Positions 3,580 through 28,740 of a stretch of 49,288 bases of DNA are shown here, piece after piece. The stretch comes from Pontibacterium granulatum (lineage in GTDB: Bacteria > Pseudomonadota > Gammaproteobacteria > Pseudomonadales > Balneatricaceae). The DNA is taken from positions 1 through 49,288 of the forward strand of contig NZ_JASBRH010000029.1 in the NCBI RefSeq assembly GCF_029961155.1. The letters are read 5' to 3'. A program made the position numbers and the translations under genes. Position 1 is the first letter of the stretch, and the number at the start of each line of letters is the position of its first letter. The notes under the pieces are model-generated. The model was not told the origin of the DNA, did no database searches, and saw only the letters and a list, made by a program, of their open reading frames with translations.

Positions 3580-5307
3580 TTATTTCAGCCAGAAAGCGAT
3601 CAGGGTAAACAGGGCGATCATAAACCACACCAGCGACATCAGCTGCCAGAAGATCAGTGCGTTAGGGGATTTCTGCGCGGCTTCACGCGGTACCAGGAAG
3701 GCCGGGTTGGGTTCGGTCAGATCCTGCATAAAGTGGTTGATAGTGTCGTAACGTTGTTGCGGGTCGATCATCATTGCTTTTTCCAGTGCGCGGTCGAACC
3801 AGATCGGGATGATCGGATTGTAACGGTCCGCAGGGATGTATTTCAGTTTTTGCAGTTGCTGTGGCTTTTCGCAGTTTTCCAGGCCGTCGCCAAACGGCAG
3901 GTGGTGGGTAAAGATCTCGTAGGTGATCGCCGCCAGGGAGAACATATCCCCCTTGATTCCGGTGTTCTGGCCCAGTCGGAAAACCGGGTCAGAGTAGTTC
4001 ATGGTGCCGAGGATCCGGTCGCGCTCGATCGGCACAAAAATCTCGTTAATCCCCGCCACAAACACCGAACCAAAGTCGACGATAACGGCTGTGTTATCCG
4101 GCCGGATCATCACATTGCTCGGCTTAAGATCCTGGTGCAGGGTTTCCCGTTTATGGAACGCCTTCAGACCATTGGCGATCTGCTTGACGATCTCAATGGC
4201 CAGTGCCGGTTTCGGGGTGGGATTGGCTTCGATCCACTCATCCAGCGGCACCCCTTCGATGGGCTCCATTAAGTAGTAGAGGAACGTTTTGGCACGGTTG
4301 GGGATATGCACTTTCACCACGTTGGGGCTGTGGATGCGGCTACCGACCCATTCCTCCATTACAAAGCGCTCGATGTAGGCGGCGTCGTCTTCGTAGTTGC
4401 GTGACGGGGTTTTCATCACCCAGAGCTGTTCGGTTTCCAGATCACGCACCCGGTACAGCTGGCTGCGGTTGCTGGCGTACAGTTCAGATTCGACAAAGTA
4501 GTTATCGATCTTCATGCCCGGTTCCAGATCCGGCGGGAAGGGCAGGTCGGTGAGGCGGTCGGTGATCTCGTCTACTGTGTTGTCAGAGAGTTTCTCCACA
4601 CGGACCAACTGACAGCTCAGGTTATCGGTGCTGCCGGCGTCGTAGGCAGCCTGCACCAGCGCTTCGCTGCAGGCTTGCAGGTCGCGGTCGGCCAGCGCCA
4701 TATTTTTCAGGACCGACGGTTCCAGCGTATCGTGGATGCCATCGGTGCTGAGCAGGAACAGGTCACCCTCTTCGATATCGATAGAGCGGTAGTCGATCTC
4801 CAGATGCGTATCCATGCCCATCGCCCGTGACAGGCAGCTGTTGCTCTCGCTCAGGCGGGTGATGTGATCCTCCGTCAGGAGCTCCAGGCTCTGGTTGCGG
4901 ATCAGGTAGATGCGGCTGTCCCCGATATGGAACAGGTGTGCCTTGCGGGACTTGATAACCAGCACGGACAGGGTGCAGACGTGGCCGCGGCTGGTGGAGA
5001 GGTATTCGTGGCTGCGGGCATAGAGCAGCCGGTTGATGGAGGTCAGCACCTTCTGGGCGGACTTGCTGACCGTCCAGATATCCGGGGTATCGAAGTAGTC
5101 GCTGAGGAACTCCTGCACACAGTATTGTGCAGCTTCCGCGCCGGCTTCGGCGGTGCTCACACCGTCTGCAATGATCGCGACCGCGCCTTTGGTGGTGAGC
5201 AGGTTGCCCTCCGGTTGATAGGTCCCCAGGCAATCCTCATTGCGTTCTTTACGGCCCTTTTCACTGCACTGGCCGGTTTCAAGCTCAATTTCGTTGCTGA
5301 GATACAT
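3580..5307 (-). CDS. Bifunctional PP2C phosphatase / Ser-Thr protein kinase, membrane-anchored
   Basis: A 575-aa fusion. Residues 1-240 are a PP2C phosphatase (RNED near 23, ADGVSTAEAG near 48, FHIGDSR and STDGIHD). Residues 265-530 are a Hanks-type kinase (VMKT lysine, HQDLKPSN catalytic loop, VDFGS metal site). A single hydrophobic segment at the C-terminus (WQLMSLVWFMIALFTLIAFW) should anchor it to the inner membrane. The ATG at 5307 is preferred over an upstream in-frame start because AGGAA lies 7 nt before it. It lies 108 bp downstream of the nitrate transporter gene, same strand. The same pairing occurs next to nasA in Pseudomonas, which suggests phosphorylation control of nitrate uptake or assimilation. 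The substrate is unknown. Confidence 0.85.
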   Translation of the reverse strand: MYLSNEIELETGQCSEKGRKERNEDCLGTYQPEGNLLTTKGAVAIIADGVSTAEAGAEAAQYCVQEFLSDYFDTPDIWTVSKSAQKVLTSINRLLYARSHEYLSTSRGHVCTLSVLVIKSRKAHLFHIGDSRIYLIRNQSLELLTEDHITRLSESNSCLSRAMGMDTHLEIDYRSIDIEEGDLFLLSTDGIHDTLEPSVLKNMALADRDLQACSEALVQAAYDAGSTDNLSCQLVRVEKLSDNTVDEITDRLTDLPFPPDLEPGMKIDNYFVESELYASNRSQLYRVRDLETEQLWVMKTPSRNYEDDAAYIERFVMEEWVGSRIHSPNVVKVHIPNRAKTFLYYLMEPIEGVPLDEWIEANPTPKPALAIEIVKQIANGLKAFHKRETLHQDLKPSNVMIRPDNTAVIVDFGSVFVAGINEIFVPIERDRILGTMNYSDPVFRLGQNTGIKGDMFSLAAITYEIFTHHLPFGDGLENCEKPQQLQKLKYIPADRYNPIIPIWFDRALEKAMMIDPQQRYDTINHFMQDLTEPNPAFLVPREAAQKSPNALIFWQLMSLVWFMIALFTLIAFWLK

Positions 5308-5415
5308 ATCAAATTCCTGTTTTCTAGGAGCTTGTCTGGCTCCAGGCTTCCCAAAACAGCAAAAGGCAGGGCCAGAAGCTGACCCCACCTTTTAATTTAG
5401 CTGTGGAGTAATCGC

Positions 5416-6888
5416 TTATTCCACATCGATAAGCTGTACGGTGCCATCCGGCAGAACCTCAGCCATCTTGCCGCTTGGCTCATCCATGAACTGCACCATG
5501 CCGAACACGACAGCAGCAGAGGCGGCGATTACCATGAAGAAGGTAGAGTAGTCCACGAAGCTCAGTACTGTCAGGTAGCACACCGCACCGACGTTACCGT
5601 AAGCACCCGCCATACCCGCGATCTGGCCAGTCATGCGACGCTGGATCAGAGGCACCACTGCGAATACTGCACCTTCACCTGCCTGCACGAAGAAGGAACA
5701 CGCCATAGTTGCGATCACTGCCAGAGGAATCCACCAAGTACCGTCGATCTGGCTCAGGATCATGTAACCAACGGCCAGACCCAGGATCAGCACGCTCAGG
5801 GTTTTCTTACGGCCGATCTTGTCACTCAGGTGACCACCGGTAGGACGTGCCACCAGGTTCATGAAGGCAAAACCGGATGCCAGCAGACCTGCTTTTACCG
5901 GGTCCAGACCGTCGAACGTCTCCAGGAAGAACAGGGGCAGCATGGATACTACCGCCAGCTCGGAGCCAAAGGTTGCGAAGTAAGCCACGTCCAATACCGC
6001 CACCTGCTTGAACTTGTAGCGGTGCAGTTCTGGTACGCCGTTTTTCAGGTTCTCTTCGTTAACGTGGTAGATCGCACGTACCTGAACCAGGAACAGGATC
6101 ACCAGCGCCGCGTAGATTGCGTTAGTCGCGAATCCATCCAGCAGCCCGATGTTTGTTGGCGACAGTTTCCAGGTCAGAACCGCCAGTGCCACATACATCG
6201 GGATGTTCATCAGAATGTAGAAGACGAAATCGCCTTTGCTGGTAACTTCCAGGCCACCGCTTTTCTTCGGCTTGAAGTACGTGGAGCCTTTTGGAGTGTT
6301 GCGTGCCATACGGTAGTAGATCAGACCGTACACAATCGCGATCACACCGATAGACGCCAGAGCGTAACGCCAGCCGTTCTCACCGCCGTATATCAGGGCG
6401 ATGGTTGGCAGGGTCATTGCCCCGGCTGCGGAACCGAAGTTACCCCAGCCACCGTAGATACCTTCAGCAACACCGACCTGTTTCGCTGGGAACCACTCGC
6501 TCACCATACGGATACCGATTACGAATCCGGCGCCGATGAAACCGCTGAGGAATCGCATGATCGCCAGCTGTTCATAGGTCTGTGCGGCCGCGAAGCCAAG
6601 ACAAATCGCACCGCCAATGACCAGCAGGATGCTGTAGATCAAACGAGGTCCGTACTTGTCCACCAGTGTACCGATGACAATCCTCGAAGGAATCGTCAGT
6701 GCCACGTTCAGTATCAGCAGTGCCTTAATTTCCGCGCCCGACAGACCAAAGACGTCCTTGATGTAAGCCATCATCGGCGCGTGGCTGAACCAGACCACGA
6801 AGGTCAGAAAGAAAGCGAACCAGGTAATGTGCAAGGTTTTAATTTTGGGGTCGCCAAAATTCAGTAACCTTATTCCGCTAGTGGACAT
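5416..6888 (-). CDS. nasA: MFS nitrate/nitrite transporter (NasA/NarK family)
   Basis: A 490-aa, 12-helix major facilitator of the nitrate/nitrite porter family. The N-terminus ([20 protein letters not shown]) and the glycine-rich signature block [14 protein letters not shown] (about residue 138) are characteristic. Length and the neighbouring PP2C-kinase resemble assimilatory NasA of Pseudomonas. However, no nirBD or nasC is nearby, and the promoter carries the same NarL/FNR arrangement as narK1 and narG, so it may serve respiration. The ATG at 6888 follows AGGAG at 7 nt. Its predicted start near 7065 gives a 5' UTR of about 175 nt. The choice between nitrate and nitrite, and between uniport and antiport, cannot be settled from sequence alone. 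Confidence 0.88.
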
Positions 6889-7071
6889 GTGACTGCTCCT
6901 AAATATTAACAGCGATTTTTGCAGTTTTACCGGCTAACAGATGGTGTGTAATTTCGTGGTTTACCGTTTGAGCAATCAAAAAGGTTTGAAGGTTTTTAAG
7001 TTGATAAACACACGATTTTTTACAGCAGTTATTCCAGTTGAGTCGGTAGTGATTAAGAGTAACTTGCAGTA

Positions 7072-7113
7072 AAAATATGCCCTTTCTAAAAGACGGATAT
7101 TGACATATATCAA
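7072..7113 (-). promoter_or_regulatory. FNR-activated promoter of the nitrate transporter gene
   Basis: TTGACATATATCAA (7100-7113) matches TTGAT-N4-ATCAA at 9 of 10 positions. On the minus strand the start is predicted near 7065, with TATTTT as the -10 (7077 down to 7072) at the class II distance. Confidence 0.7.
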
Positions 7114-7150
7114 CGGTTTTTCAGGCCGGTTTGAGGATGTAAAGGTGATA

Positions 7151-7166
7151 TACCACCTTCGTGGTA
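7151..7166 (-). promoter_or_regulatory. NarL 7-2-7 site upstream of the nitrate transporter gene
   Basis: TACCACC-TT-CGTGGTA is an inverted pair of NarL heptamers in the 7-2-7 arrangement. Its centre (7158.5) is 52 bp upstream of the FNR site centre, the same distance as at narK1 and narG. The heptamers match TACYYMT imperfectly (5 of 7), but TACCACC recurs at all four NarL sites of this window. Confidence 0.65.
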
Positions 7167-7242
7167 TTGGATGGGTTGATGTTTAATCCTTTGAATTTAA
7201 AAGGATATTTTTGTTTTTATAAGTGGGTGTTAGACTTTTTTC

Positions 7243-7266
7243 TACCCCTAGTAATCTTAAGGGGTA
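7243..7266. promoter_or_regulatory. Pair of inverted NarL heptamers, 10-bp spacer
   Basis: TACCCCT (7243-7249) and AGGGGTA (7260-7266) are perfect TACYYMT heptamers facing each other with 10 bp between them. A third AGGGGTA lies at 7374-7380, touching the -10 of the proposed small-RNA promoter. The spacing is not the 7-2-7 type, but three perfect heptamers within 140 bp suggest nitrate control of the plus-strand transcript. Confidence 0.45.
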
Positions 7267-7341
7267 CAGTGTGGCAAGAGAGGGGAGCAAATCGATGAAT
7301 TTGGGGACGTAAAGTTCAGCCTCAATACACCCTGTCTGTAA

Positions 7342-7384
7342 TTGATAAATATTAATTACAGGTGATTTTTTGAAGGGGTATATA
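7342..7384 (+). promoter_or_regulatory. FNR-type promoter of the putative small RNA
   Basis: TTGATAAATATTAA (7342-7355) matches the FNR consensus at 9 of 10 positions and lies at the centre of a longer dyad (CTGTAATT at 7336-7343, AATTACAG at 7354-7361). TATATA at 7379-7384 is placed as a class II -10, giving a plus-strand start near 7391. No coding gene begins before the terminator at 7590-7623. Confidence 0.6.
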
Positions 7385-7390
7385 AAACTT

Positions 7391-7623
7391 ATCTCTTCAG
7401 AGGTATTGGTCAAATAATAAACCGGGTTTATCGTTGACAGCGTTCTGAAGGTTGTTGCACGTGCTGATCTAGATGCTCGGATCAGGTTCTGGATAATACC
7501 CTCTCTCCTCGTTATCCAGTGACGTGCAATGGCTTATCAGAAACCTTGACTCATGAGGTGTTCAGGGCCTCATATCAACTGGCAAGTCACCGGCGGAATC
7601 TGACCTATTCCGCCGGTTTTTTT
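7391..7623 (+). ncRNA. Putative FNR-regulated structured small RNA
   Basis: A stretch of about 233 nt with no convincing gene, bounded by an FNR-type promoter and a strong intrinsic terminator. Its central part can fold as a three-way junction. P1 pairs TTGCACGT (7455-7462) with ACGTGCAA (7522-7529), extended by AAGGTT (7448-7453) with AACCTT (7542-7547). P2 is CTGATC (7464-7469) with GATCAG (7480-7485). P3 is CTGGATAA (7489-7496) with TTATCCAG (7512-7519). P4 is ATGAGG (7553-7558) with CCTCAT (7568-7573), and the terminator follows. The P3 loop holds CCCTCTCTCCTC, a pyrimidine tract able to pair with Shine-Dalgarno sequences. This suggests a trans-acting regulator of anaerobic genes, in the manner of FnrS. 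It matches no RNA family I recognise. Confidence 0.6.
7590..7623 (+). terminator. Strong Rho-independent terminator of the putative small RNA
   Basis: CCGGCGGAAT (7590-7599) pairs perfectly with ATTCCGCCGG (7607-7616) across a 7-nt loop and is followed by seven T residues (7617-7623). The T-run is on the plus strand only, and no plus-strand coding gene precedes it after the window start of the intergenic region. Confidence 0.9.
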
Positions 7624-7843
7624 CTAACTGAGATCACGTGATATTTGTCCGGATACTCGGCCCCCATTACTTGCATATATGCCTGTTGTTTTTTGCAACG
7701 TCTTTTTGTCCCCGGGCAATATATCTGTCTGAATTCAATTGGATAAATTGCGCTTGCCAGCGATGTTGTGCAACCATTCAACATGTTCGTAGTTCGGTAT
7801 TCAGCCGCCCACGCAGTCGAATGCGATGATTCAAGGAAAATCA

Positions 7844-10800
7844 ATGCGGAATCGCGACAGAGCCTCCGATAGAGATCGTGCTCAGATGCAATCTCACTCG
7901 TTAGCATCGCTAAACTTGACCCCGCCCGCTGTGTACGTGTTGGGCTTTATCTTGCTTCTTTCCTTCGTTACTGGCGCGTACTTCACTGAAAAATTCATTT
8001 ACGAGCGGCATGCCATCCAAGTCCGTTCTGAAGTGCAGCAGCACCTGTACACCACCCGGGACCGTATCGATAACAACCTGAAAGGTGATATGCAGCTTGC
8101 CAGGGGGCTGATCGCTGCGATAGCCGCCGATCCTTATATGGATCAACTTACCTTTGAGCAGGCTGCAGAGGCGTTGATGGAAAAGAATCAACGTCTTAAG
8201 GAGATGTCGGCGGCGCCGGGGCTGGTGATCAAATTTCTTTACCCGATAGCAGGGAATGAAGGGGCTTTAAATCTGGACCTCGCAAAAGTCCCCGAACAGT
8301 TTGGAGCAATCCAGCGGGCACGCAGTACCGGTGAGATGGTGTTGTCGGGGCCTGTTGATCTGATCGAAGGTGGTACTGCGTTTATTTCCCGGATGCCCGT
8401 GTTTCTGAGCGATGAGGGTGGGCCTTACTTCTGGGGAATCGCCAGCGCCCTGATTGATGAGCATGCATTGTATATGAACAGTGGCCTTCTGAATGATGAT
8501 ATGCCCATCGAGATCGCCATTCGCGGTAAAGATGCGTTAGGGCCGGAAGGGGAGGTGTTCTTCGGGCGTGCCTCCCTATTTGATGAACACCCGGTGCTGA
8601 CCGAGATTCTGTTGCCCAACGGCAGCTGGCAACTGGCAGCGGTCGCAAAAGGAGAGCAGGCACTGCCAGGCGTTATCTGGCTGATTCGCGGCGGATTTGC
8701 TCTGCTTGCGCTCGTAATACTGTTGGCTTTTGTTGCGATCGTGAATTCTCTGAGACAAGCCCACCTGGCTCAAGCCCAGTTGAGTCTATCCCTGCGTGCG
8801 CTGCACGAACGAGAGGCGTTGTTGCGTACCGTCGTCGATGAAATGCCTGATGTGGTGGTACTTAAAGACAAGGACGGTAAATTCCTGCTGGGTAATCAGG
8901 CGGTCGCTCAACTTTACAACACGACCCCGGACGAGATGCTTGGTAAGGACGATGCCGACTTTGGCGTGCCCAAAGAGATGGCCGATTTCTTCCGCGAGAA
9001 CATACAGGCGGTGATCGCTAGGGGTGAAACAGAGGTTGTCTTTGAGGACAGTACGGATGCCGTAACCGGCGAAGTGCGCCACTTTAAGTCGATCAAGCGT
9101 CCTTTTAAGGATGTGGACGGTAACGACCAGATTCTGGTCATCGCACATGACATCACCGATATCGTTGATGCACAGGATCAGGTGGCCGCCAATGAAGCCA
9201 AGTTGAGCGCCATCCTGGATAACGTGGACGCTTATATTTACCTCAAGGATTCGGACGGCAAGTACCTGTTCGCCAACAAAAAGGTCTTGGATTTGTGGGG
9301 TGTATCGATGGATGAAGTGATCGGTTACACCGATGACCAATTCTTCGATGCTGAATCTGTTGTGATTATTAAACAGAATGACCGACAGGTCTTTGAAACA
9401 GGTGAAACCTTCCGGGAAGAGGAGTCAGCCACCAACCTGCGCGATGGCAGTGTAGGAATCTACCGCACGACCAAGCTTCCTTTACGTCGGGACGATGGAT
9501 CTATCTACGCCCTGTGTGGGATTTCAGTGGATATCTCTGAGATCAAGCGGATCGAGCACGCCCTGCGTGAGAGTGAGCAGCGCTTTAAGGTGGCCGGGAA
9601 GGCGGCTTATGATCTGATTTACGAATGGGAGGTCGCAACAGACAGCTTGCGCTGGTTTGGTGATATCGACCGTATTCTGGGCTGCAAACCCGGAGAAATC
9701 TCTCATGAGGTAGACAGCTGGTTGGCGTTGATCCATCCGGATGATCGGCCAAGGCTGGCCGGTGTTGTGGAACAGCATCGTAATAGCATCCAGCCGATCA
9801 ATTACGAGTACCGTATTCGCCATAACAACGGCACCTACCGTTATTGGAGTGACCATGCACTGCCGTTGCTGGATGACAACCGTAAGCCCTACAAGTGGAT
9901 TGGTGTGTGCACCGATATCACCACCCAGAAGCAGCAACAGCGCGAACTGGAGTTCAGTGCTTATCATGATCGCCTGACCAGCCTGCCAAACCGTATGTTG
10001 TTGTCGGATCGCTTGCGTCAGGCGATGTATCAGGAAGCCCGTCGTGGGCAGAGTTTGGCGGTGGTCTACATCGATCTCGATGGCTTTAAAGAGATTAACG
10101 ATACTCACGGTCATGAGATGGGAGATCACTTGCTGGTAGCGATAGCAAAACGTTTCCAGCGTGTGCTGCGTGAGGGCGATACGGTTGCCCGCCTGGGGGG
10201 CGATGAGTTTGTGGCGGTACTGATCGATATCGAAACCACTGCCAGTGCCATTCCTCTGCTGCGCCGTCTGTTGAAAGTCATCGGCGAACCGGTGTTGGTG
10301 GATGATCTGATCTTGCATGTATCGGCCAGCATCGGTGTCTCGTTCTATCCACAAAATGATGACGTGGATGCGGACCAGCTGTTACGTCAGGCGGACCAGG
10401 CGATGTACCAGGCCAAGCTGGAAGGTAAAAACCGCTACCACTTCTTTGATGCCGAGCACGACCGTAGCTTACGTGGACAGCATGAGATTCTGGAACGGAT
10501 TGGAGAAGCCCTGTTGCGCAACGAGTTTGAGCTCTACTACCAGCCGAAAGTGAATATGCGCACCGGCCAAGTACTGGGTGTGGAGGCGTTGATTCGCTGG
10601 AACCATCCGGTGGAAGGGCATCTGCAGCCGGGTGAGTTCCTGCCGGTGATCGAGGATCACCCGCTCTCTATCGAATTGGGCGAGTGGGTGATCAATCAGG
10701 CACTTAAACAGTTACAGTGCTGGAGCCGCATGGGGCTGAATATACCCGTCAGTGTGAATATTGGCGGCTTGCAGCTACAGCAGAGTAATTTTGCAGAGCA

Positions 10801-11650
10801 GCTGCAGCGCCTGCTGGCGCAGTATCCGGATGTGGAGCCGGCGGACCTGGAGCTGGAGGTACTGGAAACCTGCGCGTTGCAGGATATCGTCAAGGTATCT
10901 AAGGTGATGCGGGCCTGTCAGCTGATCGGTGTAAATTTCTCGCTGGATGACTTTGGTACCGGGTATTCATCCCTGACCTATCTGAAATCGCTGCCGGCAG
11001 CGGTGCTGAAGATCGATCGCTCCTTTGTACGCGACATGCTGGAAGACCCGGATGATCTGGCGATTCTGGAAGGGGTTGTCGGCATGGCTGCGGCTTTCCG
11101 CCGTAAGGTGATTGCGGAAGGTGTAGAGTGTGTTGAACACGGAAAGCTTCTGTTGCAGTTGGGCTGTGAACTTGCCCAAGGTTACGCGATCGCAAAACCG
11201 ATGCCGGCAAGTGAGGTTCCGCAATGGATTGAATCCTGGCAACCGCCAAAGGAGTGGCGTACGCAGAAGCCGATCAGCCGGGATGATCTTTCTCTGTTAT
11301 TTGCAGCGATCGAACACAAGGCGTGGATGCGTACACTGGATTATTATCTGAGCGGTGATGTTGAACAAACGCCGCCACTGGCACCGGACACCTGCCGTTT
11401 TGGTCAGTGGTTGGATACCGAGGGCAAGAGACGTTACGGTGGTACGGCCTTGTTCAGTGAGGTTATTGAGCTGCATCGTCAGGTGCATCTGACAGGTCAG
11501 GATATCTGTCGTTTGTATGAAGCGAATGAAGTGCTTGCGGCACAGGCGAAGTTGGATGATCTGACGGATCTCAGCGATGACCTGCTCAGTTGCCTGGATG
11601 TGTTGCTCAGTGGTTATTCGCTGGAACGCTTGAACGTGGTATCAGATTAG
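7844..11650 (+). CDS. CHASE-PAS-PAS-PAS-GGDEF-EAL-CZB cyclic-di-GMP enzyme
   Basis: A 1268-aa inner-membrane sensor. Two membrane helices (about 28-47 and 278-300) bracket a periplasmic CHASE-like domain; three PAS domains follow (about 325-440, 450-570, 580-695). The GGDEF domain is intact (GGDEF 785-789) and has an RxxD inhibitory site (REGD) five residues upstream. The EAL domain has EALIRW (914-916) and DDFGTGYSS. The last 115 residues fit the CZB zinc-binding core HxxW-x22-CxFGxW-x21-HxxxH (H1158, C1184, H1211, H1215). The ATG at 7844 follows AAGGA at about 6 nt. It could make or degrade c-di-GMP in response to zinc or oxidants. The link to the neighbouring nitrate genes is positional only. 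Confidence 0.88.
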   Translation: MRNRDRASDRDRAQMQSHSLASLNLTPPAVYVLGFILLLSFVTGAYFTEKFIYERHAIQVRSEVQQHLYTTRDRIDNNLKGDMQLARGLIAAIAADPYMDQLTFEQAAEALMEKNQRLKEMSAAPGLVIKFLYPIAGNEGALNLDLAKVPEQFGAIQRARSTGEMVLSGPVDLIEGGTAFISRMPVFLSDEGGPYFWGIASALIDEHALYMNSGLLNDDMPIEIAIRGKDALGPEGEVFFGRASLFDEHPVLTEILLPNGSWQLAAVAKGEQALPGVIWLIRGGFALLALVILLAFVAIVNSLRQAHLAQAQLSLSLRALHEREALLRTVVDEMPDVVVLKDKDGKFLLGNQAVAQLYNTTPDEMLGKDDADFGVPKEMADFFRENIQAVIARGETEVVFEDSTDAVTGEVRHFKSIKRPFKDVDGNDQILVIAHDITDIVDAQDQVAANEAKLSAILDNVDAYIYLKDSDGKYLFANKKVLDLWGVSMDEVIGYTDDQFFDAESVVIIKQNDRQVFETGETFREEESATNLRDGSVGIYRTTKLPLRRDDGSIYALCGISVDISEIKRIEHALRESEQRFKVAGKAAYDLIYEWEVATDSLRWFGDIDRILGCKPGEISHEVDSWLALIHPDDRPRLAGVVEQHRNSIQPINYEYRIRHNNGTYRYWSDHALPLLDDNRKPYKWIGVCTDITTQKQQQRELEFSAYHDRLTSLPNRMLLSDRLRQAMYQEARRGQSLAVVYIDLDGFKEINDTHGHEMGDHLLVAIAKRFQRVLREGDTVARLGGDEFVAVLIDIETTASAIPLLRRLLKVIGEPVLVDDLILHVSASIGVSFYPQNDDVDADQLLRQADQAMYQAKLEGKNRYHFFDAEHDRSLRGQHEILERIGEALLRNEFELYYQPKVNMRTGQVLGVEALIRWNHPVEGHLQPGEFLPVIEDHPLSIELGEWVINQALKQLQCWSRMGLNIPVSVNIGGLQLQQSNFAEQLQRLLAQYPDVEPADLELEVLETCALQDIVKVSKVMRACQLIGVNFSLDDFGTGYSSLTYLKSLPAAVLKIDRSFVRDMLEDPDDLAILEGVVGMAAAFRRKVIAEGVECVEHGKLLLQLGCELAQGYAIAKPMPASEVPQWIESWQPPKEWRTQKPISRDDLSLLFAAIEHKAWMRTLDYYLSGDVEQTPPLAPDTCRFGQWLDTEGKRRYGGTALFSEVIELHRQVHLTGQDICRLYEANEVLAAQAKLDDLTDLSDDLLSCLDVLLSGYSLERLNVVSD

Positions 11651-11723: not shown

Positions 11724-12389
11724 CTATTTAATCCCTTCCTGAACGGCCCAAACTGCGACCTCTACGCGAGAGCGCAGGTTCAACTTCTTCAACAGATGTT
11801 TCACATGCACCTTCACGGTGCCTTCGGTGATGCTCAGTTTACGGGCGATCAGTTTATTCGGAAGGCCTGCGGCGATCAGTTTGATGATCTGACGTTCGCG
11901 TGGGGTCAGGCTGCTGATGTCCGGGCCCTTGGCGGTACGTTTGCTCTGCAGCGCCTGGGCGAGCAAGGTGGTGAGGCGGTCGCTGATCACCATCTTACCC
12001 AGCGCGGCTTGGTTGAGGTTGTTCAGCAGCTCCTCCGGCTCCATATCCTTCAGCAGATAACCGTCGGCACCGGCTTTTAGCGCGGCGACCACATCCTCTT
12101 CATTATCGGAGACGGTAAACACCACTACACGGGAATCCACACCCTCTTCGCGCAGCATCTTGAGGGTTTCGATGCCGTTGATCTCTGGCATGTTGAGATC
12201 CAGCAGAATTAGATCGGGCTCATGCTCCAGCGCAGCGGCAACACCATCGTTGGCGTTGCTGGCTTCGGCGACTACTTCGAGATCCGTATCCAGTTCGATC
12301 AGCTGCTTCACGCCCTTGCGCAGCAGGGGGTGGTCATCAATCAGCAGAATGGATGCGGGGCTGCCTTGCTCACTGCTCATGTCGTTCAT
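11724..12389 (-). CDS. narL: Nitrate/nitrite response regulator NarL
   Basis: A 221-aa NarL/FixJ-type regulator. The receiver domain has the acidic pair (IDDH near 17) and the phospho-acceptor D64 in [11 protein letters not shown]. The LuxR-type helix-turn-helix spans about 155-215 ([19 protein letters not shown], then [16 protein letters not shown]). It is the partner of NarX, encoded 19 bp upstream. Phosphorylated NarL binds TACYYMT heptamers, and such sites in 7-2-7 form occur before narK1, narG, moaA and the nitrate transporter gene. The ATG at 12389 follows AGGA at 7 nt, better than the second ATG three codons later. Confidence 0.95.
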
Positions 12390-14409: not shown

Positions 14410-14451
14410 TTGATACGGATCAATACCCGAAGGGCCTCTCAGAGCTAGTTT
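14410..14451 (+). promoter_or_regulatory. FNR-activated narK1 promoter
   Basis: TTGATACGGATCAA (14410-14423) is a perfect FNR consensus. TAGTTT at 14446-14451 sits where a class II -10 is expected, giving a start near 14458 and a 5' UTR of about 30 nt. The same -10 hexamer occurs at the same distance in the narG promoter. Confidence 0.8.
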
Positions 14452-18026: not shown

Positions 18027-18068
18027 TTGATCTGCGTCAACAGCCTCCGGCCGATAGTGGCGTAGTTT
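18027..18068 (+). promoter_or_regulatory. FNR-activated narG promoter
   Basis: TTGATCTGCGTCAA (18027-18040) matches the FNR consensus at 9 of 10 positions. TAGTTT at 18063-18068 is at the class II -10 distance, giving a start near 18075. Confidence 0.75.
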
Positions 18069-18254: not shown

Positions 18255-21200
18255 ATGAGCCATTTGCTTGATCGATTAAAATATCTGAAAAAAGAAAAAC
18301 CGGAGAAGTTCTCCGATGGTCACGGGCAGACTACAGAAGAAAGCCGTGACTGGGAGGACGGTTACCGTCAGCGCTGGCAACACGACAAAGTTGTGCGCTC
18401 CACGCACGGTGTAAACTGCACCGGTTCCTGTAGCTGGAAAATCTACGTTAAGAACGGCCTGATCACTTGGGAAACCCAGCAGACCGACTATCCACGTACC
18501 CGTCCTGATCTGCCTAACCACGAGCCGCGTGGTTGTCCACGTGGTGCGAGCTACTCCTGGTATATCTACAGCGCAAACCGCCTGAAGTACCCAACAGTTC
18601 GTAAGCGCCTGCTGAAACTGTGGCGTGAAGCGAAAGCGCGCAACAGCGATGCGGTAACCGCGTGGGCGTCTATCGTTGAAGATTCTGGCAAAGCTCAGTC
18701 TTATAAGTCTGTACGTGGTCAGGGTGGTTTCGTTCGTTCCACCTGGGAAGAAGTGAACGAAATCATCGCAGCGGCGAACACTTACACCATCAAGCAGTAC
18801 GGTCCTGACCGTGTCATCGGTTTCTCCCCGATCCCTGCAATGTCCATGGTGTCCTACGCGGCTGGTGCGCGCTACCTGTCTCTGATCGGTGGTGCATGTC
18901 TGAGTTTCTACGATTGGTACTGTGACTTGCCGCCGGCGTCTCCAATGACCTGGGGTGAGCAGACCGACGTTCCTGAATCCGCCGACTGGTACAACTCCAA
19001 CTACGTAATCGCATGGGGTTCCAACGTACCTCAGACCCGTACCCCGGACGCGCACTTCTTCACCGAAGTACGTTACAAGGGTACCAAGACTGTCGCAGTG
19101 ACTCCGGACTACTCCGAAGTTGCGAAGCTGTGTGACCAGTGGATGAACCCTAAACAGGGTACTGACGCAGCACTGGCGATGGCGATGGGGCACGTCATCC
19201 TGAAAGAGTTCCACGTCGACAAGCCAAGCGAGTACTTCACTGACTACGCCCGTCGTTACACCGACATGCCGCATCTGGTTCAGCTGGATCAGCGTGAAGA
19301 CGGTAGCTACGTACCGGGTCGCTTTATCCGTGCCGCTGACTTCGATAAGAATCTGGGTCAGGACAACAATCCTGAGTGGAAGACTGTCGCGTTTGATGAA
19401 GCTAGCAACAGTTTTGTTACGCCAAACGGCTCCATCGGTTTCCGTTGGGGTGAAAAAGGTAAGTGGAACATCGAAGCGAAAGAGGGTGGTGAAGGCAAAG
19501 ACACCCACCTGGCACTTACTTTCCTCGAAAACCACGACGAAGTGGTGTCTGTCGGCTTCCCATACTTCGGTGGTGTAGAGAACGAATACTTCACCAACAA
19601 CAAGTTTGAAGACGTTATCCACCACAACATGCCAGCCAAGAAGATCAAGCTGGCCGACGGTAGCGAATCCCTGCTGGTAACCGTAGGTGACCTGATGCTG
19701 GCGAACTACGGTGTTGACCGTGGTCTGGGCGGTGACTTCGTCGCGAAGAGCTTCGATGACAACGCACCATACACTCCAGCATGGCAGGAACAGATCACCG
19801 GTGTAGACCGCAAGGTTGTGATCCAGATCGCACGTGAGTTTGCAGACACTGCAGATAAGACCAAAGGTCGCTCCATGATCATCGTGGGTGCCGGTATGAA
19901 CCACTGGTACCACATGGACATGAACTACCGTGGCCTGATCAACCTGCTGGTAATGTGTGGCTGTATCGGTCAGACCGGTGGCGGCTGGGCGCACTACGTA
20001 GGTCAGGAAAAACTGCGTCCACAGTGCGGCTGGTTGCCTCTGGCATTCGGTCTGGACTGGCAGCGTCCACCACGTCACATGAACGGTACCTCCTTCTTCT
20101 ACAACCACTCCAACCAGTGGCGTTACGAGAAGCTGGAAGTGGACGAGATCCTGTCTCCACTGGCGGACAAGTCCAAGTACACCGGCAGCCTGATCGACTT
20201 CAACGTACGTTCCGAGCGCATGGGCTGGTTGCCATCCGCACCGCAGCTGGGCACTAACCCACTGGAGTTGACCAAAGCGGCAGAAGCGGCAGGCGTGACG
20301 CCACAGGAGTACACCGTCGATCAGCTGAAATCCGGCGCACTGGGCTTCGCAGCGGAAGATCCGGACAACCCGCAGAACTTCCCGCGCAACATGTTCATCT
20401 GGCGTTCCAACCTGCTGGGTTCCTCCGGTAAGGGCCACGAGTACATGCTGAAGTACCTGCTGGGTACCAACCACGGCGTACTGGGTAAAGACCTGGGCGA
20501 AGAGGGCGGTAAGAAACCGGAAGAGGTGAAATGGCACGACAAGGGTTCCGAAGGCAAGGTTGACCTGTTGGTAACCCTGGACTTCCGTATGTCCACCACC
20601 TGTCTGTACTCCGATATCGTGTTGCCAACTGCAACCTGGTACGAGAAGGACGACCTGAACACCTCGGATATGCACCCGTTTATCCACCCACTGTCCGCAG
20701 CAACCGACCCAGCTTGGGAAGCGCGCTCTGACTGGGATATCTACAAAGGCATCGCTGAGAAGTTCTCCGAAGTCTGCGTCGGCCACCTGGGTGTAGAGAA
20801 AGACCTGGTAACCGTGCCTCTGCAGCACGACACCCCAGGGGAACTGGCGCAGCCATACGACGTTAAGGACTGGAAGAAAGGCGAAGCTGATCCGGTACCG
20901 GGCAAAACCATGCCAAACTTGGCGGTGGTTGAGCGCGATTACCCGAACACTTACAAACGCTTCACCTCTGTAGGTCCATTGCTGGAGTCTCTGGGCAACG
21001 GCGGTAAAGGTATCACTTGGGATACCAAAGAAGAGGTCGATTTCCTCAAGAAACTGAACTGGACTCACACCGAAGAGGGCGCTCACGAAGGCCGCGCGAA
21101 GCTGGATACAGCGATCGATGCCGCCGAGATGATCCTCAGTCTGGCTCCTGAAACCAACGGACAGGTTGCTGTGAAGGCATGGGAAGCACTGGGTGAAGCC

Positions 21201-24358: not shown

Positions 24359-25033
24359 ATGTCATACATTAATGATCTTCTGTTTGGGGTATACCCATAC
24401 ATCGCCGGTGCAGTCTTTCTGATTGCCAGCTGGATTCGTTACGACCGGGAGCAGTACACCTGGCGTGCGGGTTCCAGTCAGATGCTGAACTCAAAAGGCT
24501 TCCGTCGTGCGAGCAACCTGTTTCACGTAGGTGTGCTGTTTATCTTCTTCGGTCACCTGGTGGGGCTGCTGACGCCACATGCAGTGTACGAGCCATTTAT
24601 CTCCAGCGGCAACAAACAGCTGCTGGCGATCATCTCTGGTGGTGCTGCGGGTATCGCATGCTGGGTTGGTGCATTCCTGCTGCTGAAACGTCGTCTGGGT
24701 GACCCTCGCGTACGTGCAACCAGCAGCAAAGCGGATATCTTCATCCTGGTACTACTGTTCGTACAGGTAACCCTGGGTCTGCTGACTATCCCATTCGCAC
24801 TGAACCACCTGGACGGCAGCGTCATGTTGCTGCTGGCCGGTTGGGCACAGGGTCTGGTGACTTTCCAGGCGGATGCTGCAGACCACCTGCTCGGTGTGGG
24901 CTTCATCTACAAAGCACACATCTTCGTGGGTCTGACTATGTTCATTGTGTTCCCATTCACCCGAATGGTGCACATCTGGAGCGTACCGGTGAAATACTTC
25001 GCGCGCAGCTACCAGGTTGTACGTCAGCGTTAA
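24359..25033 (+). CDS. narI: Respiratory nitrate reductase gamma subunit (cytochrome b)
   Basis: A 224-aa, five-helix membrane diheme cytochrome that oxidises quinol and passes electrons to NarH. Histidines at FHVGVLFIFFGH (second helix) and at YKAHIFVGLTM and RMVHIW (last helices) provide the heme ligands known for the family. It is the last structural gene of narGHJI; the message then passes two strong hairpins before the parvulin gene. Confidence 0.97.
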   Translation: MSYINDLLFGVYPYIAGAVFLIASWIRYDREQYTWRAGSSQMLNSKGFRRASNLFHVGVLFIFFGHLVGLLTPHAVYEPFISSGNKQLLAIISGGAAGIACWVGAFLLLKRRLGDPRVRATSSKADIFILVLLFVQVTLGLLTIPFALNHLDGSVMLLLAGWAQGLVTFQADAADHLLGVGFIYKAHIFVGLTMFIVFPFTRMVHIWSVPVKYFARSYQVVRQR

Positions 25034-28035: not shown

Positions 28036-28740
28036 ATGAATAAGGTTTGTGACAAAGAGACTCAGATGGCCGAGGCCCTGAGCCAGATCCGCAACCATAC
28101 GTTGCTGTCCTCACTGAACGACGAACAGTTTCAAGCGCTGACCGCGCATTCCCGCCTGATTGATCTGAAACCGGATCAGACCCTGTTCCTGCAGGATGAT
28201 GAAGCCGAGCGTTTCTTTATTGTTATCCAAGGCAGCATCAAGATGTTCCGTCTCACTGCCGAAGGGCGTGAGATTGTGATGAACGTGCTGACCCGGGACC
28301 AAGCCGTGGGCGAAGCGGCGATGTTTATGGCCGAACACCACTATCCGGTGAATGCCAGTGCGATCGAGCGGTGCCAGGTGATCTCCCTGAGCAGCAATGT
28401 CTATCAGCGCCTGCTGCGGGAATCGACCGATAGCTGCTTTGGCGTACTGGCCGCGATGGCGTGCCGTCTGCAGAACAGTATGGCGGAGATCGAAACCCTC
28501 ACTTTGCAGAGTGCTTCCCACCGCGTGATCCGCTTCCTGCTGGGCTTGGTACCAGAAGGTGCCGAACGTGCCGAGGTAAAACTGCCGGTGGCGAAGCAGT
28601 TGATCGCCGCACGACTGGCGATGCAACCGGAAACCTTCTCCCGCGTAATGCGGGATCTGAAAAGCCGTGGCTTGCTGCTGGTGGATGGTTGTCATCTGAC
28701 CATCCTCAGCGTACAGGGCCTGAGGGGGATGATGGCATGA
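28036..28740 (+). CDS. dnr: Dnr-type CRP/FNR family regulator
   Basis: A 234-aa regulator with a cyclic-nucleotide-fold sensor domain (about 18-140), dimer helix and winged HTH (about 165-230; KQLIAARLAMQPETFSRVMRDL). It lacks the N-terminal cysteine cluster of FNR, so it should not sense oxygen through [4Fe-4S]. The sequence and place next to moaA fit Dnr, a heme-based NO sensor that activates denitrification genes at FNR-like boxes. It may bind some of the TTGAT-N4-ATCAA sites listed here. Its stop overlaps the next start (ATGA). Confidence 0.85.
   Translation: MNKVCDKETQMAEALSQIRNHTLLSSLNDEQFQALTAHSRLIDLKPDQTLFLQDDEAERFFIVIQGSIKMFRLTAEGREIVMNVLTRDQAVGEAAMFMAEHHYPVNASAIERCQVISLSSNVYQRLLRESTDSCFGVLAAMACRLQNSMAEIETLTLQSASHRVIRFLLGLVPEGAERAEVKLPVAKQLIAARLAMQPETFSRVMRDLKSRGLLLVDGCHLTILSVQGLRGMMA

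Follow-up and report, generated by a model that had tools for sequence, protein, structure and literature searches.

The window, by which we mean the whole stretch of 49,288 nucleotides of Pontibacterium granulatum DNA that was analysed, carries a nitrate-transporter gene, narK, and a putative small RNA (sRNA) gene in divergent orientation, with a GGDEF-EAL gene downstream of the latter (Table 1). On the far side of the GGDEF-EAL gene from the RNA are narL and narX. The names narK, narL, nar and nrd are those we presume for the window genes, and seven window proteins were covered by a domain check. The GGDEF-EAL protein, located inside the nitrate locus, ends in a C-terminal CZB zinc-binding domain, and a protein encoded between the nrdG-like and narK genes (3580-5388) combines PP2C-type phosphatase and Ser/Thr kinase domains. 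FNR and Hfq are both encoded in the window's genome. In addition, a CRP/FNR-family regulator distinct from the genome's FNR is found at 28036-28740, with a score below the cut-off of the FNR model.

Table 1. Position of the putative sRNA gene, its elements and the neighbouring genes in the window.
Feature	Position	Strand	Remarks
narK-type MFS transporter	5416..6888	-	divergent anchor gene of the sRNA; own FNR-type dyad at 7100-7113
FNR-like dyad TTGATAAATATTAA	7342..7355	+	9/10 consensus positions; centre about -42 (-41.5) from the predicted start
NarL-type heptamer TACCCCT	7374..7380	-	exact match; overlaps the -10
-10-like TATATA	7379..7384	+	sequence reading
Conserved 5' element TATCTCTTCAGAGGTA	7390..7405	+	11/12 fixed positions of the presumed NarL 7-2-7 site; also foldable as a hairpin
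Putative small RNA gene	7391..7623	+	predicted start; conservation, fold, covariation
Three-way junction	7455..7529	+	P1 7455-7462/7522-7529 (8 bp), P2 7464-7469/7480-7485 (6 bp), P3 7489-7496/7512-7519 (8 bp)
C/U-rich P3 loop CCCTCTCTCCTC	7499..7510	+	predicted unpaired, mean probability 1.0; candidate mRNA-pairing site
Fourth hairpin	7555..7574	+	stem 7555-7559/7570-7574
Intrinsic terminator	7589..7623	+	11-bp stem 7589-7617 and seven T (first T counted in the stem)
CHASE-PAS-GGDEF-EAL-CZB protein	7826..11650	+	downstream, not part of the RNA gene; domain check
narL-type response regulator	11724..12389	-	convergent direct neighbour of the RNA gene in 7/14 loci

The original prediction, made from the window sequence, had proposed an FNR-like dyad followed by a -10 element at the class II distance. 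Both were found where they had been placed, and the -10 sets the putative start near 7391, with class II spacing. A sigma-70 scan of 6880-7860 gave no full promoter. The pattern TTGAYNNNNRTYAA occurs in the 49-kb window as nine strand-matches (five sites) against 0.69 expected. The other four FNR-type dyads are located at 770, before an nrdD-like frame; at 7100, before narK; at 14410, between the narX-like kinase and an MFS gene; and at 18027, before a 1251-codon frame at 18255 that is narG-like by size and place only. Since the one upstream of the nrdD-like gene (870-2594) is a perfect FNR-type palindrome, TTGATAACAATCAA (770-783), the anaerobic ribonucleotide reductase may share the regulon.

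Folding of the 233 nt gave an energy of -81.6 kcal/mol (z -4.44), and none of 200 shuffles was as good. P1, P2 and P3 are perfect helices exactly as predicted. The fourth hairpin exists as well, but its proposed span, 7553-7573, was shifted by a base or two, and the stem in Table 1 is the better one. The terminator, predicted at 7590-7623, was recovered with one more base at its 5' side, and a hairpin with a T run is kept at the same place in relatives. Since the terminator scan found one against a shuffle mean of 1.0, the assignment follows from this conservation and not from the scan. No Rfam family reached its gathering score in the window. At a relaxed threshold, His_leader, Xoo2, PyrR, TtnuHACA13 and Hrs13 appeared, but none came close to its gathering score, and they were discarded.

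Conservation was evaluated by DNA search. In a first look, three of 57 genomes matched: the window itself, G004 and G019. In G004, which belongs to the same genus, the block corresponds to window 7368-7623 at 77% identity, beginning slightly ahead of the -10 and closing with the final T of the terminator. Extending the search to 116 family genomes gave 26 places among the matches listed, four of which were used (window, G004, G019 and G104), the other 22 being short matches. G104 was found through a 20-base identity; there, narK stands on one side of the RNA and a convergent narL on the other, with no GGDEF-EAL gene intervening.

The covariation alignment comprised the three sequences that share the junction (window, G004 and G104), with the structure drawn from one of them. 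Over the 22 pairs of P1-P3, 90.8% of the cells were paired, and 10 pairs had changed on both sides with pairing kept, a number that none of 500 shuffles reached and for which slid versions gave at most 2. On these three sequences, the junction thus passes the covariation test that the original prediction had put forward. Further pair types in the junction were less extreme (3/500 shuffles as high). In P1 of G104, three of the eight pairs were swapped for other standard pairs and the two outermost were lost, while P2, poorly aligned in G104, had 76.5% of its cells paired. In the fourth hairpin (alignment columns 169-185), one of five pairs had changed on both sides and one was broken in G104. 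The loop core UCUCCYC remained constant across the three sequences while P1-P3 changed.

The region beside narK was then compared in the wider family. The narK search matched 61 of the 116 family genomes. Of 30 loci retrieved, 29 were examined (L062 was left out as its orientation was not settled), and the upstream regions covered are those of the closer narK matches. In 14 of the 29, a second set of elements points away from narK and ends in a terminator. Typically there is an FNR-type box, and the -10 carries a GRGGTA motif; the 5' element reads TAYNNCTNNAGRG, exactly or nearly, and a T-run terminator follows after 85-331 nt. The RNA was taken by eye to extend from the 5' element as far as the T run. 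Twelve of the 15 loci without the element were read, in two of which the absence is uncertain because of runs of N, and the other three (L053, L057 and L060) were covered by motif scan only. By genus label, the 14 loci belong to g1 (three), g8 (one), g15 (eight) and g16 (two); they are not independent, and two of the g15 sequences are nearly the same. Their position and the 5' element suggest that all 14 may descend from one RNA gene.

FNR boxes with at least 7/10 positions are in place in 11 of the 14 loci, several of these being closely related, with centres 35.5-50.5 bases before the 5' element. However, the loci whose RNA is most like that of the window have a weak box (6/10 in G004) or none in place (best 5/10 in G104, and only an out-of-place 7/10 in G019). 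The proposed control by FNR is thus favoured by most of the loci but not by the closest ones, and activation of the sRNA by FNR is considered likely.

The RNA bodies differ between loci. A model of the junction built from the window, G004 and G104 (R1) recovered it at E ≤ 0.01 among the 116 family genomes only in those three training sequences, plus one match in G130 (E 0.002) that was rejected, as it falls inside a 401-codon frame, thiolase-like by eye. Further family matches were at E 0.10 (G094) and 0.30 (G065), and none beyond the window was found at E ≤ 0.01, with strict filters, in the sampled 390 order and 369 class genomes. A second model (R2), covering the promoter and 5' element of the 14 loci, had no family match beyond its training loci at E ≤ 0.01, the weaker ones being at E 0.017-0.48. 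Matches of either model to its own training loci are no evidence. Among the 390 order genomes, R2 had five additional matches (E 0.001-0.007), where about four are expected at the per-genome cut-off; they were taken as chance, and no NarK-like frame was seen near them by eye.

Five g15 loci have a long imperfect hairpin in common, in which 5 of 33 pairs changed on both sides (7/500 shuffles as high); further pair types were matched by 74/500 shuffles, and the structure was predicted on the same alignment. That all 14 loci share a C/U loop was rejected: the tract exceeded the length found in shuffles (p < 0.05) in only 4 of 14, and in seven of the eight g15 loci it is not exposed, with an unpaired probability below 0.4.

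The inverted repeat TATCTCTTCAGAGGTA, which had been absent from the original prediction, is the best conserved element of the 14-locus alignment. Read as an RNA hairpin it did not hold, with 66.7% of cells paired and zero both-side changes over the 14 loci; slid by +2 it did better (71.4% paired, four both-side-change cells). Compared with what we take to be the consensus of the NarL 7-2-7 site, it scores 9 to 11 of 12 over the 14 loci, a score without background. As for single NarL heptamers, for which we assume the consensus TACYNMT, the claimed TACCCCT copies are indeed present at 7243, 7260 (minus strand) and 7374 (minus strand). Upstream of the 5' element, an exact heptamer is spaced at 16 bases in five of the 14 loci and at 14 bases in a sixth. 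The two TACCCCT heptamers at 7243-7266 face each other. A similar GGGGTA element also occurs upstream of narK where the RNA is absent, and is therefore probably an element of narK.

Sites that overlap the -10 and the start usually repress. Since the NarL-like sites have this position here, we lean towards NarL-P lowering the sRNA when nitrate is present, with the reverse also possible. Nitrate control, as originally proposed, is therefore plausible, but sites over the -10 and start would be compatible with either repression or induction.

These data are most likely explained by a real, new structured sRNA gene restricted to this lineage. Its conserved structure, terminator-like end and separateness from the neighbours would place it with the terminator-ended bacterial sRNAs. 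The stand-alone structured sRNA of the original prediction is well supported, at the level of sequence comparison, by the covariation, the exact conserved block and the recurrence without the GGDEF-EAL gene. The whole reading, which we consider moderately probable, is an independent sRNA gene at 7391-7623, divergent from narK and with its own terminator, which would be switched on by FNR, lowered by NarL-P and act in trans through its loop. Under anoxia, activation by FNR would come from the dyad at about -41.5, and NarL-P would act on the sites overlapping the -10 and start, more likely reducing it in nitrate. Acting in trans, the sRNA would use its UCUCC loop to pair with the Shine-Dalgarno regions of mRNAs and block translation, probably together with Hfq. 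The start regions of the paired mRNAs would be GAGGAGAG-like.

Since the loop is predicted to be fully unpaired and its core stays constant while the stems change, Shine-Dalgarno pairing is the natural reading of the P3 loop. Targets were searched with a 14-base wobble pattern against its reversed control. The window genome gave five matches, including the gene itself, against two for the reversed pattern, and G004 gave four against two, which is near the control. Seven non-self matches were opened, of which one (L070, in G004) is a possible start region, being located 5 nt before a TTG of a 132-residue frame; it had no counterpart among the pattern matches of the window genome. Pairing energies were computed over 28 window start regions and, having no background, were not used as support; the six best included the frames at 24359 and 46240 as well as two nrd genes, nrdD- and nrdG-like. 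Pairing of the P3 loop with ribosome sites, as first suggested, is thus plausible from the constant core, but no target was supported by the search.

This result also fits an RNA whose main partner is a protein, such as a translational regulator, or one that sponges other RNAs, so that the loop would not be an mRNA-pairing seed. The heavy structure and the C/U tract that is not exposed in seven of the eight g15 loci point in the same direction, whereas the retention of the loop core in three sequences with changing stems argues for pairing. Overall, we judge this alternative unlikely.

The conservation could also be that of DNA only, namely of the sites for FNR and NarL in the promoter region of narK. 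The 5' element does match the presumed 7-2-7 site at 11 of 12 positions and lacks hairpin covariation, and the 7-2-7 form relaxed to fit it occurs twice in the window against 0.09 expected, the other match being inside the PP2C/kinase gene. Nevertheless, DNA sites do not explain a covarying junction 60-140 bases downstream and a conserved terminator, and narK has its own FNR-type dyad, which makes this explanation quite improbable.

Little probability is likewise left for a 5' leader role, in which the RNA would belong to the GGDEF-EAL mRNA and its terminator would work as an attenuator or riboswitch. The gene lies on the same strand roughly 200-300 nt past the terminator in the window, G004 and G019, and in these 3 of the 14 loci a GGDEF-EAL homologue is next on that strand, with its N-terminal part within the fetched DNA. 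It was not found next door in the other 11: a convergent narL follows in seven, and neither gene is within the fetched DNA in four. Since narL follows in half of the loci, the RNA is not generally a GGDEF-EAL leader, and such a cis role is refuted as the general one by the loci that have no GGDEF-EAL gene. The lack of any Rfam family at gathering score in the window also speaks against a riboswitch. The simplest history would be that the GGDEF-EAL gene was inserted between the RNA and narL, or was lost elsewhere. A GGDEF-EAL search of the genome contigs gave three distant loci.

Finally, that the region encodes a small protein is very improbable: the longest forward frame touching 7336-7640 and starting inside the RNA has 40 codons (GTG, 7519-7641), but it crosses the terminator into the flank, and helix changes on both sides together with loop-length changes fit RNA, not codons.

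Returning to the trans-acting sRNA, a conserved promoter with a fast-changing body suggests a constant signal input and targets that differ between lineages. A tentative extension is that a frozen FNR/NarL promoter drives a freely changing body, on in anoxia and lowered by NarL-P once nitrate is available, so that the RNA, encoded within the nitrate locus, would report 'no oxygen and no nitrate' and silence mRNAs via a Shine-Dalgarno-pairing loop. The body would have been re-tooled per genus, as a three-way junction, a long imperfect hairpin or a C/U tract in a terminator loop.

Several known sRNAs resemble the predicted one in part. RsaE/RoxS and the CCUCCUCCC 'cuckoo' RNAs are sRNAs with C/U-rich loops and pyrimidine motifs, and the candidate resembles them, by analogy only, in a pyrimidine loop that could cover Shine-Dalgarno sequences. 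It resembles FnrS of enterobacteria as a regulatory RNA of anoxia presumably activated by FNR. The comparison with FnrS is by description; it was not among the five sub-threshold Rfam matches, although the set of Rfam models searched may not include it. PaiI of Pseudomonas aeruginosa is likewise an sRNA tied to nitrate respiration and NarL, and NarS of E. coli/Salmonella is linked to narK, FNR and NarL. In a review (PMC8139620), FnrS, PaiI, NarS and others are described, and NarS is processed from the 3' UTR of the narK mRNA; the window RNA, in contrast, would have a gene of its own, on the opposite strand to narK and divergent from it on the upstream side. According to PMC5703892, PaiI has 126 nt and no extensive structure besides its terminator, is NarXL-dependent and lies between PA14_13970 (transposase) and PA14_13990 (part of an ABC transporter), not beside narK. 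The window RNA, with about 233 nt, a z of -4.44, a covarying junction and a place beside narK, is set apart by that description, and neither size, structure nor place supports the kinship to PaiI implied by the original prediction. The gene was not described in the literature on narK-linked Fnr/NarL sRNAs, Oceanospirillales and Marinobacterium, mostly at abstract level and including few subscription papers, nor was such an RNA described in the accessible text of a Methylophaga paper (PMC11526790).

The candidate would therefore add a covariation-supported regulatory RNA to the nitrate-respiration locus, none having been found for this bacterial family in the literature available at that level. 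In addition, the 14 loci offer a natural series, with the same promoter element and at least three body types, for studying how an sRNA body changes under a constant signal. As a separate observation, in the homologues at L045 (2691-2944) and L047 (735-1026, minus strand) a long terminator-type hairpin carries the C/U-rich tract in its loop region, in place of a separate stem.
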